From the NCBI RefSeq assembly GCF_003967195.1, contig NZ_AP018725.1, forward strand, positions 1,860,001-1,924,000: a DNA stretch of 64,000 nt, written 5' to 3'. This DNA comes from Sulfuriflexus mobilis (GTDB lineage: Bacteria > Pseudomonadota > Gammaproteobacteria > AKS1). The notes under the pieces were generated by a model. It made no database searches, had not been told where the DNA came from, and saw only the letters and a list, made by a program, of their open reading frames with translations. A program made the translations under genes and the position numbers. How positions within the stretch are numbered: the stretch's first letter is position 1; every line of letters starts with the position of its first letter. This document shows positions 41,166 through 48,845 of the stretch, one piece after another.

Positions 41166-41365
41166 GCATTAGGTGCTCCAACGACATATCTGTCTATGGA
41201 GTGAAACGGGAAGTCGGTGCGATGCACCAAACGTGTTATCTATTCCGACGCTGCCCCCGCAACGGTGATCGAGTCAAGGTCCGTCATACAGCCACTGTGC
41301 ACAGCATGGGAAGGCGATGAACCTGGAAAAACCACTCGTAAGCCCGGAGACCGGCCCGATGCAAT
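41166..41365 (+). promoter_or_regulatory. Cobalamin (AdoCbl) riboswitch
   Basis: The characteristic aptamer parts occur in order. AGGTGCTC is at about 41171, GGAGTGAAACGGGAAGTCGG near 41198, and the core CGCTGCCCCCGCAACGGT at 41250-41267. A GGGAAGGCGATGAA-type J6/3 segment lies near 41308. The B12 box AAGCCCGGAGACCGGCC is at 41340-41356. It sits in the leader of btuB, so cobalamin binding would shut down receptor synthesis. An open frame reaching from 41317 into btuB runs through it and is not protein coding. Confidence 0.92.
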
Positions 41366-41422
41366 CTAGCGACATGTTGCGGCGGGCGACTATAGCGGGC
41401 ATTACTATCTGGTTTGCCTTCC

Positions 41423-41489
41423 CTTACTCCCCTGCAATGCTTAAATACGCGTATGTGCGGGCGAGCATATACCTGTTACGTGGAGTAAG
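41423..41489 (+). promoter_or_regulatory. Putative expression platform: btuB ribosome site sequestered by CTTACTCC
   Basis: The btuB Shine-Dalgarno segment GGAGTAAG (41482-41489) is perfectly complementary to CTTACTCC (41423-41430), 51 bases upstream and downstream of the riboswitch aptamer. Between them ATACGCGTAT and TGCT/AGCA pairs could close smaller hairpins. No T-run typical of an intrinsic terminator follows. This suggests control at translation initiation, as in E. coli btuB. The fold is my inference from base pairing. Confidence 0.5.
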
Positions 41490-41490
41490 T

Positions 41491-43443
41491 ATGACCAAGT
41501 TTCATCAGTCCCTGCTGGCCAGTCTCATTCTGGCGGCCATTTCCAATTCTGCCAGCGCAGCCAGTACGAACACCCAACTGGATACCGTTGTGGTCAGTGC
41601 AACACGGTCAGAACAAACAAATACAACCATACCGGGAAGCATTAGTGTCATAAGCAGGCAGGATATTGAAGCCAGTGGTGCTTCAACACTGGCTGACGTT
41701 CTCCGTGGTCAGGGTGGCGTACAGGTCCGTGACCTGGTCGGCGATGGATCAGGCATAACCGTCAGCATACGCGGATTTGGTGCAACGGCCGGCTCCAATA
41801 CCCTGCTGCTTGTAGATGGCCGTCGCCTGAATAATCCTGACCTTGCTGCCCCTGAGTTCAGCAGCATCCACCTTAAAGACATTGAACGTATAGAAATTAT
41901 TCAGGGCAGTGCCGGTACCTTGTTTGGTGATCAGGCCGTCGGTGGTGTCATCAATATCATCACCCGCAGCCCAGAAGCCGAACACGCTCACGTAAAACTG
42001 ACTACCGCAAGTTATAACAACAACAGTATAACTGCAGGGATCAGCAACAAACTGGATAATGGCCTGAGTTACCGGATAAGTGCTTCTCAACGTAGTGCCG
42101 ACAATTACCGTGACAGGAACGATGTCGATTACACCAACCTGCTTGGCCGACTCGATTATGACTTTGACGCCGGCAAGGTATTCCTTGAATATCAGACCAT
42201 CGATGAGGACTTGCAGCTGCCTGGCGGCCTGTTTGCCGCAGACTTTGCACTAGACCGGCGTGCCGCGCGCTTCCCTACTGATTTTTCCGACACCGATACC
42301 GATAGCGCGCGAATCGGACTTAACTACGTGCTGAGCAATAATTGGCAGCTTGAGGCAGAGTTGACCCAACGTGATACTGATGTGATCGGTCGCTTGAGTG
42401 GTTTTAATTTCGTTCAGGAACGTAAGGTTGAGGAACTGACACCACGACTAATAGGCAGCTTTGATACCGACAATGGTGAAGCGCTTGTTACGATTGGACT
42501 GGACTTTATTAATAGCGACTATTTGCTCACCGCCTTCGGTACAACCACGAACGAGCAGAAGGTTCGTAATTTTTACGGACAGGTTGTCATACCTGTCAGC
42601 AATAAACTCACGGCCATCGTTGGCGCACGTGCAGCCAACGTAGAAAATGACCTGGCTGACTCCTTCAAATTCATTAATGGGGTTGAAATTGATGACAGCG
42701 AGACCGTCTTTGAAGCCGGCCTGTCGCTGCAAGTCAATCCGGAATGGCGCGCCTTCATCCGACGTGACGGGAACTTTCGCTTCGCCAAGCTTGACGAGCA
42801 CACCCAGACACTCGGCGGCGTTAATGCACTGGAGACCCAGACCGGCACTTCCTACGAAGCAGGAGCGGAATGGAAACGTCATGCCAACAGTGCCAGGGCC
42901 ACCCTGTTTCGTCTCAAGCTCGACAATGAGATCGATTATGACACGGTCAATTTTGCCAATATCAACCTCGACCCAACGGTTCGTGATGGCCTGATTTTAG
43001 AGGCCAACTGGCAGACTACGGACAAGCTCCGCCTGTCCGGACAATACAGTTACATCGATGCCGAATTCGACAAGGGCGCCTTCAAAGGCAATGACATCCC
43101 GTTTGTTGCCAGGAATACCGCGCATGTCAGTGCCACGTATGACATCGATTCAAACTGGGACGTGTTTGCCGAGGTCCAATACATTGGTGACCGGATTGCC
43201 GCCGGCGACATCACCAACGCATTTGGCAAGCTTGATGGTCACACTGTACTCAATATAAAACTGGGTTATCAACGTAACAACTGGCTTGCTGCACTGCGTG
43301 TTAACAACCTGACCGACCGCAAATACAGCGACTTTGCAGCCACCTCATATAACCCGGCTATTCCACCATTCGGCGCAACCGATATTGCCTTCTATGCCGC
43401 ACCTGAACGCAATATCAGCCTGTCCATGCAATACGCATATTGA
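41491..43443 (+). CDS. btuB: BtuB, TonB-dependent vitamin B12 receptor
   Basis: Outer-membrane barrel of 650 residues that takes up cobalamin at the expense of TonB energy. The start at 41491 is preceded by GGAGTAAGT. A signal peptide ends near residue 23 (NSASA). The TonB box DTVVVSATR is at 31-39, very close to that of E. coli BtuB. The plug domain (about 45-155) holds SISVISRQDIEASGA and VLRGQGGVQVRD. The barrel ends in SMQYAY. The riboswitch immediately upstream supports the B12 substrate. The tonB-like gene starts one base after the stop codon. Confidence 0.92.
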   Translation: MTKFHQSLLASLILAAISNSASAASTNTQLDTVVVSATRSEQTNTTIPGSISVISRQDIEASGASTLADVLRGQGGVQVRDLVGDGSGITVSIRGFGATAGSNTLLLVDGRRLNNPDLAAPEFSSIHLKDIERIEIIQGSAGTLFGDQAVGGVINIITRSPEAEHAHVKLTTASYNNNSITAGISNKLDNGLSYRISASQRSADNYRDRNDVDYTNLLGRLDYDFDAGKVFLEYQTIDEDLQLPGGLFAADFALDRRAARFPTDFSDTDTDSARIGLNYVLSNNWQLEAELTQRDTDVIGRLSGFNFVQERKVEELTPRLIGSFDTDNGEALVTIGLDFINSDYLLTAFGTTTNEQKVRNFYGQVVIPVSNKLTAIVGARAANVENDLADSFKFINGVEIDDSETVFEAGLSLQVNPEWRAFIRRDGNFRFAKLDEHTQTLGGVNALETQTGTSYEAGAEWKRHANSARATLFRLKLDNEIDYDTVNFANINLDPTVRDGLILEANWQTTDKLRLSGQYSYIDAEFDKGAFKGNDIPFVARNTAHVSATYDIDSNWDVFAEVQYIGDRIAAGDITNAFGKLDGHTVLNIKLGYQRNNWLAALRVNNLTDRKYSDFAATSYNPAIPPFGATDIAFYAAPERNISLSMQYAY

Positions 43444-43444
43444 T

Positions 43445-44140
43445 ATGACTCGATCAGCCACAGGGCGAATAATGATTTTTCTGATACTGTCACTGACAGT
43501 ACATGGGATGATTATCGCCCTGTGCCCGACGATTGAAAGAACGCAACTTCCCCAGCCAGGCGGCCAGGCCATAACCGTCTCGCTACTGGTACTGGAAAGT
43601 AAACAGGCCGTGCAGCAGAACGACGCGGCGCATAAAAACTCTGACGGCAAGGCTATCCAAACCAGTCCTGCCCCGGCAAAGCCGGAACAACCACCACTGC
43701 CTGTGGCCAGGAAGGTCACGCCAGCAGTCCGCCAGACAGCACAAATGAAACCCATACCCGCGAGGACATCCCTTGAAGAGCCACAGGCACCGCCTGTGTC
43801 GGCCAGGAATAAGACGAACTCCGTCGCCACACAGCCCGATTCTGTAGCAAGGCATAGTCAACGCCTCGAAGTGGTGTTGCGCAAGGCATTCAATGCGCAC
43901 TTCTACTATCCAAGACTTGCTGTTCGGCGTGGCTGGCAAGGTCAGGTACGACTGGGACTTCGAATCGAGGCCAATGGGCACTTGAGCCGGATCCGAATAC
44001 TGCAGGGTTCAGGTTATGAACTGCTTGATAAGGCTGCAATAAAGAGCCTGAATAAACTTGAAATGCTACCCACCGCCATTACACTCTTGAATGGCCATAG
44101 CATGGATCTGATCCTACCCGTCAAGTATCAGCTGTTATAA
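43445..44140 (+). CDS. tonB: TonB-like energy transducer
   Basis: Bitopic periplasmic protein of 231 residues. A membrane anchor lies at about 9-27. A Pro/Gln/Lys-rich spacer (about 55-130) follows, and the C-terminal TonB domain contains YPRLAVRRGWQGQVRLGL and SGYELLDKAAIKSL. The start at 43445, one base after the btuB stop, is preferred over an in-frame ATG at 43334 inside btuB. Coupling to btuB implies a dedicated transducer under the riboswitch. No exbB or exbD is in the window, so it must share the cell's ExbBD. Confidence 0.88.
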   Translation: MTRSATGRIMIFLILSLTVHGMIIALCPTIERTQLPQPGGQAITVSLLVLESKQAVQQNDAAHKNSDGKAIQTSPAPAKPEQPPLPVARKVTPAVRQTAQMKPIPARTSLEEPQAPPVSARNKTNSVATQPDSVARHSQRLEVVLRKAFNAHFYYPRLAVRRGWQGQVRLGLRIEANGHLSRIRILQGSGYELLDKAAIKSLNKLEMLPTAITLLNGHSMDLILPVKYQLL

Positions 44141-44174
44141 GCATTATTCAGGACAACCCGCGCAGCACCGATAC

Positions 44175-45020
44175 CTAACGCGCCGCGTCGACTGCCTCGC
44201 ACAATTGCTCTACCCCTTGCAGCATCCTTGGCGTGGCCCGATTCATCAGGTCCGGCTCGATCCAGTACAGGTGGCCATTTTTCACTGCCGCTAATTGTGG
44301 CCAACGCCTCCAGTCAGTAAATACATCTTCTGCCGAAGCCGATGTACCCGAATACACAAGCACCTCCGGTGCTCGTTGTAATACCGATTCTATACTGACC
44401 TGTGGTGCCAGGATCCCCAGTTCAGCAAAGATATTAATTCCACCGCACAGGCGGATCGCATCACTAATAATTTCCTCCCTGTTAATGGTATAGAGTGGCT
44501 TGTGGTCAATCTCGTAAAAGACCCTGACACGGCGGCGGCCACTATATTTTTTTTCTAACGCCGCCAGCTTCTGTAGAAAATTCTCTGCTGCAGCGTCAGC
44601 CTCGACCGTCCTGCCTGTCAAATCACCCAACTGTCGCAGTTGAGTCGCTATTGAATCCAGTTTATTTGACCTGACAAGGGCCAGCCTCAGTCCCAATGAC
44701 TCAATCCGATCGAGGACATGTTGCGGTGAACTGTCTTGCCAGCCAATGACCAGATCAGGATGCATATCGAGCAAACGTTCCCAATCGAGCTGAAACACAT
44801 TGCCGATCCTCGGTAAGGTTTTTGCCGCATCAGGATAATCACTATACTCAACCACCGCGATAAGCTGCCGCTCCGCACCTATTGCATAGAGAAGTTCGGT
44901 GATGTGGGGCGTCAGGCTAACTATTCGCTGCGGTTCGGCCTGAGCCGATATGGTCGCCACAAGCATAAGCAAGCAGCAGTAAATAATTCGATGTTGTATG
45001 TGCCGATAAAATTCAGGCAT
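44175..45020 (-). CDS. btuF: BtuF, periplasmic cobalamin-binding protein
   Basis: Substrate-binding protein for BtuCD, 281 residues. A signal peptide ends near residue 28 (TISAQA). The family opening EPQRIVSLTPHITELLYAIGA, the DYPDAAKTLPRIG block and the vitamin-binding ERLLDMHPDLVIGW region follow the E. coli protein. The gene converges on tonB with a 34-base gap and has no riboswitch in front, so it is regulated apart from btuB. Confidence 0.9.
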   Translation of the reverse strand: MPEFYRHIQHRIIYCCLLMLVATISAQAEPQRIVSLTPHITELLYAIGAERQLIAVVEYSDYPDAAKTLPRIGNVFQLDWERLLDMHPDLVIGWQDSSPQHVLDRIESLGLRLALVRSNKLDSIATQLRQLGDLTGRTVEADAAAENFLQKLAALEKKYSGRRRVRVFYEIDHKPLYTINREEIISDAIRLCGGINIFAELGILAPQVSIESVLQRAPEVLVYSGTSASAEDVFTDWRRWPQLAAVKNGHLYWIEPDLMNRATPRMLQGVEQLCEAVDAAR

Positions 45021-45182: not shown

Positions 45183-46160
45183 CTACTCAACCTTCATAAT
45201 GACTGTCTCGCCCTTTTCCTTGGTCCACTGGTGCATCGAGCCGTCGTACATCTTGACCTGCTTGTTACCAAGCAATTCACTGTAAACAAACCAGCTGCCG
45301 GAGGCCAGGTGGCCGCTGTTGCAATAGGTGATCGCGGCGGCCTTGGTATCGATACCGAGTGCCTCGGAAAGCTTTTGAATACTGCTCGCAGGGGTAAATG
45401 CCGCATTGCCATCAGGCCCGGTGAGTAGTTCATTGGGGAAGTTTTTTGCACCCGGGATATGCCCGTCTGCATAGACATAGGACTTCCTGTAGGTCCCCAG
45501 GTATTGTGAGACCGGACGGGTGTCAATCAGCTGTGCGCTTTTGTCTTTTACGGCCCTGCGTACATCTTCGCTGCTGGCAAGAATCTCCGTTCTTTCCGCC
45601 GTCGCGAGCCAGTTACCTTTTTTCACCCTGGCCGCGTCCGTTTTCACGGCCTGCCCCTCTTTCAGCCACTTGGCCATACCACCATCGAGGATGGCCATGT
45701 CATCCTGACCGAAGTACTTGAGGCTCCAATAGAGTCGTGTGGCACTGGTCATGTCCGCATTTGACACACCCTCACTGACGATCACCACACTGTCTCCGGC
45801 ATTTAAACCCACGGACTGGATAAAACTCTCAAAGTCTTTCTTCTCTGGTAACAGTGACTCAATCTCGACACCATTGACATCACGCTTGGTCCGCAGTTTC
45901 TTGTAGTTCACCAGACGTGCACCGGGGATATGCCCGCCAACCCTTACCAGTTTCAGCTTGCCGGTTTTTTTATCCTTGCTAAATACCGGCTTGGCGGTAA
46001 AACTTTTCAGGTTACTCCGCACATCAAGGATCACCACCTTGTTGCTGTTCGCCTTTAGCCAGCCCGTATCGACAAGCGGCCCGGGTACGGTGCCGGCCTG
46101 TGCCGTGGCAAACACGAACATGAAGCATAGTAAAACAAAGACTTTATTCAGGATATTCAT
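45183..46160 (-). CDS. Periplasmic tandem-rhodanese sulfurtransferase
   Basis: Two rhodanese domains behind a signal peptide that ends near residue 22 (ATAQA). The second domain carries the active-site loop CNSGHLAS with the persulfide cysteine at about 280. In the first domain the equivalent loop reads SEGVSNADM with no cysteine, so it is structural, the usual state in tandem rhodaneses. The ATG at 46160 is preferred to 46163 because GGAGAG then has normal spacing. A thiosulfate or persulfide sulfur donor is likely. The transporter and PCGL peptide upstream point to a sulfur module. The terminator follows the stop. Confidence 0.9.
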   Translation of the reverse strand: MNILNKVFVLLCFMFVFATAQAGTVPGPLVDTGWLKANSNKVVILDVRSNLKSFTAKPVFSKDKKTGKLKLVRVGGHIPGARLVNYKKLRTKRDVNGVEIESLLPEKKDFESFIQSVGLNAGDSVVIVSEGVSNADMTSATRLYWSLKYFGQDDMAILDGGMAKWLKEGQAVKTDAARVKKGNWLATAERTEILASSEDVRRAVKDKSAQLIDTRPVSQYLGTYRKSYVYADGHIPGAKNFPNELLTGPDGNAAFTPASSIQKLSEALGIDTKAAAITYCNSGHLASGSWFVYSELLGNKQVKMYDGSMHQWTKEKGETVIMKVE

Positions 46161-46238
46161 CATGTCTCTCCGATAATATTATTTGCACACAATATCAGTA
46201 GCTTCTCGCCCCGGCTTTGATCCAGGTCATAGTGCGGA

Positions 46239-46835
46239 TCAGGCCAAGGCGGCAATTTGCCTCTCGAGGTCTTGCAGTAAATCAATGTCTCGGGCGGATA
46301 ATAGATAAATCTCATGATCCTGCTGCACTTCTTCACTGTTTCGTTGCTGCGACAGCGCCTCGAATCGCCGTTCGCGCGCATCGAGTAAAGCACGCAGCGT
46401 GGGTAAGTAGAACTGCACCATGTGCCATAACCATTTCTCGGTCAGGCTCAGCTCCTCCGGCTCAGACAACCGCTCCACTGCCGTAACAATGTCATGCGGC
46501 GCTGCCCACGCTTCACCCGTGACCCAGTGATTAACGGTGAACCATTGCAGGGGCTGGCCCTGCCTATCCATGCTCAGGCCCGCAATATGGCTCCACTGTT
46601 GCGGACCGAGGCTGACAAAAATATGGAAGTGCCCGTGTTCCTGCGCGGGACATGAGACCGAGGGGTGACAGTGGTAATAGGCCTTCAGGCCGGCACTGCT
46701 AAAATCGAATACCGGTTCGGGGTACTTATGGTGGTATTCAAGTGGCCGATCCAACGGCAACACGGATAAAACCGGGTTGCTAGCCTCAACGGCAAAGCCC
46801 TGGATACATTCGATAAGCGCTTCGGCGGCCGGCAC
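46239..46835 (-). CDS. Hypothetical protein with His-rich metal-site-like motif, 198 aa
   Basis: Family not identified with certainty. No signal peptide or membrane segment is evident. Two close histidine clusters, YYHCHP (53-58) and EHGHFHIF (66-73), suggest a metal site. The C-terminal 70 residues form charged helices (LDARERRFEALSQQ, DIDLLQDLERQIAALA). The apparent start is GTG at 46835, 8 bases after the stop of the PCGL gene; no ATG is available upstream in frame. It follows the transporter and PCGL genes, so it probably acts with them. Confidence 0.75.
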   Translation of the reverse strand: MPAAEALIECIQGFAVEASNPVLSVLPLDRPLEYHHKYPEPVFDFSSAGLKAYYHCHPSVSCPAQEHGHFHIFVSLGPQQWSHIAGLSMDRQGQPLQWFTVNHWVTGEAWAAPHDIVTAVERLSEPEELSLTEKWLWHMVQFYLPTLRALLDARERRFEALSQQRNSEEVQQDHEIYLLSARDIDLLQDLERQIAALA

Positions 46836-46843
46836 GGGTATGA

Positions 46844-47062
46844 CTACAGGCCGCAGGGTGAGCCATTCAGGCCACAGGGGCTTTCATTCAGCAGGCCACA
46901 CGGTGCCCCGTTAAGACCACAGGGACTGCCCCCCTCTTCTTCGATCACCATGTAATCCTGCGCAGGCGTCACCGGCTCGGGTAGCTGATGCCGGGTATGG
47001 TCAATGGCAATCGCCAATGCCGCGAGCCCCATGGCTGAACCTACGACCAATTTACTCTTCAT
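46844..47062 (-). CDS. Small membrane-anchored protein with four Pro-Cys-Gly-Leu repeats
   Basis: Family not recognised. The 72 residues have a short positive start, a hydrophobic segment at about 5-20 (signal anchor or uncleaved signal) and a linker. The C-terminal part, residues 46-72, reads as four units (S/A)PCGL with spacers NG, LNE and NG. The cysteines are at 48, 55, 63 and 70, and the last unit ends at the stop codon. The start codon overlaps the transporter stop by 4 bases, so both are co-translated. The Cys-rich tail next to a thiosulfate-type transporter suggests sulfur, selenium or metal handling; this is inference only. Alternatives are a lipid- or peptide-modified precursor. Confidence 0.75.
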   Translation of the reverse strand: MKSKLVVGSAMGLAALAIAIDHTRHQLPEPVTPAQDYMVIEEEGGSPCGLNGAPCGLLNESPCGLNGSPCGL

Positions 47063-48255
47063 TGGGAGCCATCTCCTATGGGCTTATCCACACCCATCCA
47101 TATCTTGATATAGATGGCCAATATAGCGCCGGCAAAGGCCGCCCACAACCACAACCAGCCATGCAGGCTGCCCGTGCTGATCCCGCCCAGCATTGCGCCG
47201 ATATTGCAGCCAAATGCTAGGCGTGCGCCATACCCCAGTAACAGACCACCGATGATAGCTGTCAGCAGGCGCTTGCCATTGATGCTCGCCTCAGGGGCAA
47301 ACTTGCCCGCCAGGGCCGCAGCCAGCATGGCACCGATTATCACACCAAAGTCCATGATTGAGGTGGTGTCCGCGAGTACGCTGCTGTTCAAGGCCCTGGC
47401 CGGGTAGGCGCTCGCCCAGTATTGCCAGCTGGTGATATCACCGCCGAGGGCACTCCATATCTTGGTGCCCCACAGGCCAAAGGCAAAGGTTATTGACCAG
47501 GGGTGCCCCGCCACCAGCATCGTCAGCAGGTTAAAGATCAACAAACCGGCAATCCCCCACATCAGCGACCAGGGTCCAAACACGAGTCGTTGCATAGACG
47601 ATCGGCTAGTTGTCACCGCAATGGGCTTTAGCGCAGGGTTCTTTTTCATATCCAGGTAGCGGACCAGTCCATACAGCAGCGCCAGGACCAGCAATGACAA
47701 TAACAAACCGGGCAGCCAGCCCAGTTCCGCTATCAGGGAAACCTTCCCGATATTAGGCAGTTGCAACCACCAGTGCAGGTGTGCAGAGCCGAGCGTGGCG
47801 CCAACAATAAAGAATGCCAGGGTGATCAGCATGTCGACATGCCCCCAGCCAACGGTAAACAGGGTGCCTGAACCACAGCCCCCGCCCAGTTGCATCCCCA
47901 TACCAAAGAGAAAGGCACCCACCAGCACCGAGACCCCGACCTGGCCCATGGCCGCCGCGCCCTCAATACCGGGGATGGCCTTGCCGATAATGGGAAAAAA
48001 TACCAGTGAGGTCAGCATCAGCAAGATGATCTGTGCCCGCACCCCGGCACTATTGCGATCACGGATGAAAAAACGCCAGCCGCCGGTAAATCCAAACAGG
48101 GCATGCAGCAGGCTGATGCCCAGACCGACACCAATGAGGAAAAGCAGTGACTGTTTCAGGGCAAACTCGTGCTGTAACAGCAGGCTGATCGCCAGAATGG
48201 CCAAAACTGAAAATGTCGCCACATCAACGGCGGCCTTACGTTCACTGTGTATCAT
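47059..48255 (-). CDS. yeeE: YeeE/YedE family transporter (TsuA-type thiosulfate/sulfur transporter)
   Basis: Integral inner-membrane protein of 398 residues with about nine or more hydrophobic segments in two related halves. Conserved cysteines sit in GGGCGSGTL (Cys127) and FGCNIGAMLGG (Cys350); such cysteines relay thiosulfate in TsuA of Spirochaeta thermophila. Substrate could also be another reduced sulfur or selenium species. It is the first gene of the sulfur operon, and a 257-base gap separates it from the divergent double-CxxC gene. No TusA-like partner (TsuB) is seen nearby, unless the PCGL peptide takes that role. Confidence 0.88.
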   Translation of the reverse strand: MIHSERKAAVDVATFSVLAILAISLLLQHEFALKQSLLFLIGVGLGISLLHALFGFTGGWRFFIRDRNSAGVRAQIILLMLTSLVFFPIIGKAIPGIEGAAAMGQVGVSVLVGAFLFGMGMQLGGGCGSGTLFTVGWGHVDMLITLAFFIVGATLGSAHLHWWLQLPNIGKVSLIAELGWLPGLLLSLLVLALLYGLVRYLDMKKNPALKPIAVTTSRSSMQRLVFGPWSLMWGIAGLLIFNLLTMLVAGHPWSITFAFGLWGTKIWSALGGDITSWQYWASAYPARALNSSVLADTTSIMDFGVIIGAMLAAALAGKFAPEASINGKRLLTAIIGGLLLGYGARLAFGCNIGAMLGGISTGSLHGWLWLWAAFAGAILAIYIKIWMGVDKPIGDGSQ

Positions 48256-48512: not shown

Positions 48513-48845
48513 ATGAGTCTGCGAACTTTTGTATTCTGCGATATCTGTAATCCTCAGGGTTACCGGTGCGTGGAGGAACGCCGTCCCCTCAAACGGGCTA
48601 ACCGCAACGGCAGACGCATATCCGATGGGCGTGCATGGCATGAGGGTGATGTCACTACCGCCCTCGCTGAAGGCTGGGCCATCACCAAAGAAGGTCTACA
48701 TGTCTGCCCGGACTGCCTCGAACTCCACCAGTCTTTGTTCGTCAGCGATACAACTGAGCCACTGACAGAAGAAATACACGCCCCCGAACAGATGGTTGAC
48801 CGACTCTCGGGCCGGTATAAAGGGGCTCCTGGTCCGCAAAAGTGA
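48513..48845 (+). CDS. Small cytoplasmic protein with two CxxC pairs (zinc-ribbon-like), 110 aa
   Basis: Not assigned to a known family. The cysteine pairs CDIC (9-12) and CPDC (65-68), separated by about 53 residues, could bind zinc, and a further Cys is at 19. The middle is very basic (ERRPLKRANRNGRR) and followed by ISDGRAWHEGD, suggesting nucleic-acid contact. No signal peptide. AGGGGAG precedes the ATG. It is divergent from the sulfur operon and convergent with the exopolysaccharide operon end. Confidence 0.7.
   Translation: MSLRTFVFCDICNPQGYRCVEERRPLKRANRNGRRISDGRAWHEGDVTTALAEGWAITKEGLHVCPDCLELHQSLFVSDTTEPLTEEIHAPEQMVDRLSGRYKGAPGPQK

Follow-up and report, generated by a model that had tools for sequence, protein, structure and literature searches.

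Periplasmic partners of YeeE-type transporters are poorly known. The YeeE-like SoxT has been proposed to take in sulfur delivered by persulfidated SoxYZ, and thiosulfate uptake by TsuA (YeeE) involves TsuB (YeeD), a small cytoplasmic TusA-like protein encoded beside the transporter (PMC11582611). PmpAB are pairs of short YeeE-like proteins. Outside transport, bufferin and oxazolin (HvfA) precursors carry Sec signal peptides and cysteine motifs, sometimes in variable repeats, which are modified by MNIO enzymes (PF05114) with DUF2063 partners, the precursor gene adjoining that of its dedicated modifying metalloenzyme (PMC12452194).

The window, that is, the whole 64,000-nt stretch of Sulfuriflexus mobilis DNA analysed here, encodes a short Pro-Cys-repeat peptide next to a YeeE-type transporter and a protein of the family DUF6969 (Table 1). 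As with SoxYZ and SoxT, a Cys-bearing and putatively periplasmic partner lies near a YeeE-type transporter, but this partner is a short anchored tail with one to nine cysteines and no SoxY domain, and DUF6969 is an additional component. The locus shares with TsuA/TsuB a small Cys partner encoded beside a YeeE-family transporter; unlike TsuB, the peptide is predicted to be exported, is unrelated, and lies in an operon without a TusA-family gene. Two short Sulf_transp proteins ahead of the repeat peptide in Polynucleobacter recall PmpAB, whereas the passages on PmpAB that we consulted mention neither a repeat peptide nor DUF6969. Also similar in plan are the bufferins and oxazolins, which are exported Cys-motif precursors, sometimes of variable repeat number; in contrast to them, the partner here is DUF6969, the units are built on Pro-Cys, sulfur genes accompany many of the loci, and modification is our proposal. 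Since the operon has no MNIO gene and the peptide matches neither the TusA nor the SoxY model, we assign the peptide and DUF6969 to none of the groups of MNIO RiPPs, TusA carriers and SoxY carriers.

A Pro-Cys-repeat peptide in a sulfur-transport operon

Genes were called as ORFs with a composition-scored caller, and topology was read from hydropathy. The operon runs transporter, peptide, DUF6969, rhodanese (1.905–1.908 Mb), with the peptide ATG sharing four bases (ATGA) with the TGA stop of the transporter, the GTG start of DUF6969 lying 8 nt past the peptide stop, and a 75-nt gap separating DUF6969 from the rhodanese. An earlier note, written from this sequence, had described a sulfur-transport operon, which the Pfam matches upstream (PF04143) and downstream (PF00581) bear out; the gene between peptide and rhodanese, left unidentified there, encodes DUF6969 (PF22308). 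NCBIfam matches under cut-off linked the transporter to selenium-linked YedE/FdhT and to TsuA, and the rhodanese to ExtH.

Table 1. Features of the operon, in window positions.
Feature	Position	Strand	Basis
YeeE/TsuA/YedE-type transporter (Sulf_transp, PF04143)	47059..48255	minus	Pfam, E 4e-63
Pro-Cys-repeat peptide ORF, N-terminal anchor, 72 aa, ATG start	46844..47062	minus	ORF reading and homologues
Hydrophobic N-terminal anchor or signal segment, residues 5–20	47003..47050	minus	Hydropathy
DHTRH motif, residues 21–25	46988..47002	minus	Invariant in seven aligned homologues, relaxed in others
PCGL unit 1	46913..46924	minus	
PCGL unit 2	46892..46903	minus	
PCGL unit 3	46868..46879	minus	
PCGL unit 4, C-terminus of peptide	46847..46858	minus	
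DUF6969 protein (PF22308), 198 aa, GTG start	46239..46835	minus	Pfam, E 2.3e-38
DUF6969 His cluster H55, H57, E66, H67, H69, H71, H83	46587..46673	minus	Invariant in 79/79 sequences
Exported double-rhodanese sulfurtransferase (PF00581)	45183..46163	minus	Two Pfam stretches, E 1e-25; hydrophobic N-terminus

The peptide translates as MKSKLVVGSAMGLAALAIAIDHTRHQLPEPVTPAQDYMVIEEEGGSPCGLNGAPCGLLNESPCGLNGSPCGL, its final residues being the fourth PCGL; this ending and the four-base overlap, both pointed out previously, are read directly in the sequence. The hydrophobic N-terminal segment agrees with the membrane anchor that had been proposed, either as an anchor or as a signal (Kyte-Doolittle maximum 2.29 in a 15-residue window); GSAxGLAAIAVA is conserved within it in the homologue alignment, and visual inspection found no AxA cleavage site. 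Judged by hydropathy only, the peptide has the build of an exported Cys-motif precursor, namely a hydrophobic N-terminal segment and four Cys units. Cysteines of successive units lie 6, 7 and 6 residues apart, and the units are encoded as AGT CCC TGT GGT CTT, GCA CCG TGT GGC CTG, AGC CCC TGT GGC CTG and TCA CCC TGC GGC CTG, with the Ser before Pro drawn from both Ser codon boxes. As the units differ in codons and Tandem Repeats Finder detected no DNA array over them, the repetition is kept at the protein level. Among 200,000 shuffles of the peptide residues two PCGL arose in five and three or more in none, which, together with codon diversity and the tandem-repeat scan, rules out chance or DNA slippage as the origin of the units.

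No Pfam or NCBIfam model matched the peptide over cut-off, in line with the impression that it was not a known family; a PAGK match (Pfam, E 0.056, under cut-off) fell on the hydrophobic N-terminus and is most likely due to chance. Its supposed unlikeness to TusA-type carriers was upheld by the absence of a PF01206 match, both in the Pfam scan of the peptide and at the peptide locus in a whole-genome search, and the Pfam scan gave no SoxY domain (PF13501). The same whole-genome search placed the genome's three TusA-family genes far from the operon and none inside it. SoxY matches in the genome number two and map to 0.06 and 0.80 Mb. No MNIO gene (PF05114) occurs in the operon; the genome has three matches, at 0.89, 2.755 and 2.758 Mb, and these distant enzymes may modify the peptide in trans.

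Beside the operon, at 41317–45020 of the window, are ORFs that we named from sequence as a TonB-dependent receptor, a TonB-like protein and a BtuF-like binding protein, homologues of which also occur at the peptide/DUF6969 locus of genome G196 (L081). Divergent to the operon (48513–48845, plus strand) is a 110-aa protein with zinc-ribbon-like Cys pairs (CDIC...CPDC) and no Pfam match.

An unnamed family defined by its unit

Homologues of the peptide were found in 7 of 95 relatives (own genome counted), in 12 of 369 genomes of the class, and in further named records. Frame and motif are kept in about 20 relatives, confirming the peptide as a real family without a name. In the 21 distinct anchor-type peptides from which the repeat rule was read, 82 of 85 cysteines are preceded by Pro, and the unit is [SNA]PC[GS][LM], with S, N or A mostly before Pro and G or S after Cys, followed by L or M. 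The earlier note described four repeats; this number is not fixed, homologues carrying from one unit (L086, L091) to nine (L003). Spacing between cysteines is irregular across the family, ranging from 5 to 18, and what is conserved is therefore the unit rather than the spacing; this variability, together with the near-constant Pro, is expected if every unit is a separate site. The peptides have a common layout: a short hydrophobic stretch, a DHTRH-like motif leading into LP or VP, often an acidic linker, and then the Pro-Cys units. Related peptides of the anchor type, built of APCAA units, are encoded upstream of DUF6969 in Sinorhizobium meliloti pSymA, S. medicae and Ciceribacter thiooxidans, the S. 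meliloti peptide falling in a stretch without an annotated gene. Weak alignment hits (E about 0.001–0.01; G216, G226, G068 and others) were not taken as homologues, those of G216 being simple repeats in other frames.

The reading of the ORF as spurious, or as neutral low-complexity sequence squeezed between transporter and DUF6969, could draw on its small size, simple composition and want of a database family. It is already refuted by conservation, and we consider it barely credible: anchor and motif are conserved across families, codons vary synonymously between units, and the peptide is linked to DUF6969 without exception in the class, as described below.

Pairing of the peptide with DUF6969

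Of 369 class genomes 29 encode DUF6969, among them every one of the 12 with the peptide (p 5e-15), and 10 of these 12 have the orthologous rhodanese; many of the genomes are metagenome bins, which makes absences soft except in near-complete genomes. Genomes G149 and G355 keep the rhodanese (49–51% identity) and lack both peptide and DUF6969. In S. meliloti pSymA and S. medicae, peptide and DUF6969 are adjacent, and the annotation within 6 kb of the pSymA pair shows neither a transporter nor a rhodanese. From the 12/12 linkage, the rhodanese-only genomes and the pSymA pair, it follows that peptide and DUF6969 form the unit, with transporter and rhodanese as frequent associates. Peptide and DUF6969 thus constitute a widespread and so far undescribed bacterial pairing; our literature search on DUF6969 or its Pro-Cys/NPC repeat partners returned nothing relevant.

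This arrangement supports the earlier interpretation in part. The pair of transporter and rhodanese is not the core, given that the rhodanese occurs without the peptide and that the pSymA pair has neither annotated nearby. To the question raised in the note, whether homologues always accompany yeeE or rhodanese, the answer is that they usually do, with pSymA, by its annotation, as an exception. No loss of the frame was seen, the same-genus genomes G001 and G003 lacking DUF6969 and the orthologous rhodanese as well as the peptide.

The DUF6969 protein

The window protein matches PF22308 at 132.3 bits (gathering cut-off 27 bits) and has only its own Pfam model, with no MNIO or DUF2063 model matched. 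Across 79 DUF6969 sequences H55, H57, E66, H67, G68, H69, F70, H71, H83, G93, N102, W104 and V105 are all invariant. AlphaFold2 models of the window protein (pLDDT 94.6, pTM 0.90) and of a betaproteobacterial member (93.9, 0.90) are confident and share the same strand and helix order. H55 closes strand 2 and H57 lies just past it, H67 just precedes strand 3, which holds H69 and H71, and H83 is in strand 4; read from secondary structure, neighbouring strands probably share one His cluster. This His-rich site is probably metal-binding.

In a comparison aimed also at MbnB/MNIO structures, Foldseek found no PDB match at E<=0.001 for either model, with best E values of 0.25 and 0.93, and VIA-align 2 reached at most Z 3.3 and 3.5; the hits, LolA-like and others, were unconvincing. 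Nor is any PDB entry related to DUF6969 in sequence. The lack of convincing fold matches is no proof of a new fold. Nearly all members lack a hydrophobic N-terminus, and no signal peptide was seen in the window protein, making DUF6969 probably cytosolic, while its partner peptides are predicted to be exported.

Cys-repeat proteins at DUF6969 loci

At least 573 DUF6969 loci were confirmed in the genome contig collection, and viral contigs yielded a single weak relative. Within the class, 24 of 29 loci have a PC-repeat protein nearby and two more have other Cys repeats (CAATC, GCCGCC). We gauged the background of PC-repeat ORFs by distance bins at 78 loci from the genome contig collection and IMG/VR: of 46 PC-pair ORFs, 29 fell inside the 1-kb bin at DUF6969, whereas the bins 4–5 kb away contained none. 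Repeat types vary by lineage (PCGL/PCSL, NPCAAK, NPCGPxNPCGP, RGGNPCAPSA, CNPCNPC, CGACGAC, GCCAAKKGCC, KCGAKCGAK), DUF6969 elsewhere adjoining secreted NPCAAK, NPCGP, CGAC or GCCAAK repeat proteins. A DNA pattern of two NPC units matched 8 of 369 class genomes, seven of them with DUF6969 (p 7e-8). The exception, G064 (99% complete), has an NPCA-tailed cytochrome and no detected DUF6969; this cytochrome c (L167, 1336–2301) carries NPCA repeats flanking its haem domain on both sides.

A PC-repeat neighbour is absent at the DUF6969 loci of G090/G213, G129 and Azospirillum, and the NPC-repeat pattern matched nowhere in A. brasilense or A. halopraeferens. Several Alphaproteobacteria without an adjacent repeat have NPC-repeat proteins elsewhere in the genome, and some DUF6969 partners may be different or undetected. 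At three alphaproteobacterial loci (L113, L134, L158), ORFs ending in a formylglycine-generating-enzyme-like GGSWDDRGCGVCR motif, named by eye, adjoin DUF6969 upstream. On S. meliloti plasmids CP130055.1 and NZ_CP009145.1, some strains gave DUF6969 by tblastn as two or three separate fragments, possibly from frameshifted copies.

Sulfur context and its limits

Beta- and gammaproteobacteria, including Polynucleobacter, Ideonella, Tibeticola, Rhodanobacter and Guyparkeria, repeatedly show the gene order YeeE-like gene(s), repeat peptide, DUF6969, rhodanese. Counting genomes as independent, 22 of the 29 genomes with DUF6969 have SoxY, compared with 168 of the 340 without it (p 0.005); of the 12 peptide genomes, 11 have SoxY (p 0.004). 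A SoxA/TsdA-type cytochrome c (L065) and a cytochrome P460 (L125) carry fused NPC repeats. Gene context of this kind suggests a sulfur role for the peptide. Homologues outside sulfur loci, which the earlier note named as refuting its reading if frequent, do occur in part, for the wider family, as on pSymA. No sulfur-transport operon surrounds DUF6969 in Azospirillum, S. meliloti or Burkholderia glumae.

Proposed mechanism and alternatives

In the explanation that we favour, and to which we give slightly less than an even chance, DUF6969 acts on the Pro-Cys units ahead of export, by modifying or loading them, and the peptide, once exported, handles sulfane sulfur between the transporter and the rhodanese. 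The peptide would be exported by its N-terminal anchor here, and by a Sec-type signal peptide in other bacteria, and would bear an acidic tail, probably disordered, in which each Pro-Cys unit is independent. Cytosolic DUF6969, with its His-rich and probably metal-binding site, would act on these units before the peptide is exported or while this happens, most likely modifying or loading their cysteines. The multi-Cys tail would then take up and present sulfane sulfur (as persulfide or thiosulfonate) in the periplasm, mediating there between the YeeE-type transporter and the rhodanese, as has been suggested for the cysteine arm of SoxY with respect to SoxT. The association of a cytosolic, His-rich protein with exported Cys-repeat peptides follows the logic of bufferins and oxazolins, from which we infer that DUF6969 acts before export and is most likely a modifying enzyme; the earlier suggestion of a modified-peptide precursor likewise gains weight because the strict companion of the peptide is DUF6969. 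That sequence and fold searches found no catalytic relative of DUF6969 counts against a modifying enzyme. Against the favoured explanation as a whole stand the DUF6969 loci that have no PC-repeat neighbour, the NPCA-tailed cytochrome of G064, the weak sulfur context in S. meliloti, Azospirillum and B. glumae, and the similarity, under cut-off, of transporter and rhodanese to selenium/tellurium proteins.

The operon context would also suit an unmodified thiol relay, the idea put forward in the earlier note, in which free cysteines carry persulfide sulfur from transporter to rhodanese and DUF6969 is a chaperone or delivery factor keeping the tail reduced and export-competent. Such a relay would fit an operon without a TusA/TsuB gene, and a protein of an Acetobacteraceae MAG (L127) in which NPC repeats and a rhodanese domain are fused. 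We nevertheless judge it unlikely, if worth serious consideration: a compact fold bearing six His and one Glu, all invariant, suggests catalysis or metal binding more than a chaperone, and the repeats also occur on cytochromes and distant from rhodanese. The main competitor of a sulfur role as such is a metal buffer, whereby the periplasmic Cys-repeat tails, with or without modification, bind Cu(I) or a different thiophilic metal or metalloid in the manner of bufferins and oxazolins, DUF6969 is their maturase, and the sulfur genes are adjacent for other reasons. Two loci speak for it. In G138 (L068, 8464–11294) an NPCA-repeat peptide and DUF6969 are directly followed by DUF2282 (bufferin) and MNIO (PF05114) genes, and on B. 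glumae plasmid NZ_CP033659.1 (L228, 975–7961) a KCGAKCGAK-type Cys-repeat peptide precedes DUF6969 among genes for thioredoxin, CcdA, sigma-70, zf-HC2 and an arsenosugar glycosyltransferase; oxazolin precursors, moreover, contain EGKCG repeats (PMC12452194). Yet Cys-Cys distances as variable as those of the family, and members with a single PC unit, would make a poor polydentate site, and YeeE-like and rhodanese genes are steady neighbours in the beta- and gammaproteobacterial loci, so that we place metal buffering below the thiol relay, as an improbable reading of the locus.

Returning to DUF6969 as a modifying enzyme, we offer a broader and rather doubtful proposal: that DUF6969 could found a class of peptide-modifying metalloenzymes that is both new and unrelated to MNIO, whose substrates would be tandem Pro-Cys and comparable Cys-repeat units in exported peptides and in cytochrome- or rhodanese-fused tails, within a previously unknown periplasmic group that handles sulfur or metal across Proteobacteria.

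Implications

DUF6969, a family for which we found no papers, gains a testable substrate, and the rule that it is often encoded beside an exported Cys-repeat protein can be tested on the at least 573 loci, with S. meliloti as a genetically tractable host for the pair. Our results suggest that cysteines are modified here by an enzyme of a new kind, or else that YeeE-type transporters are served by a new sulfur carrier with multiple cysteines.
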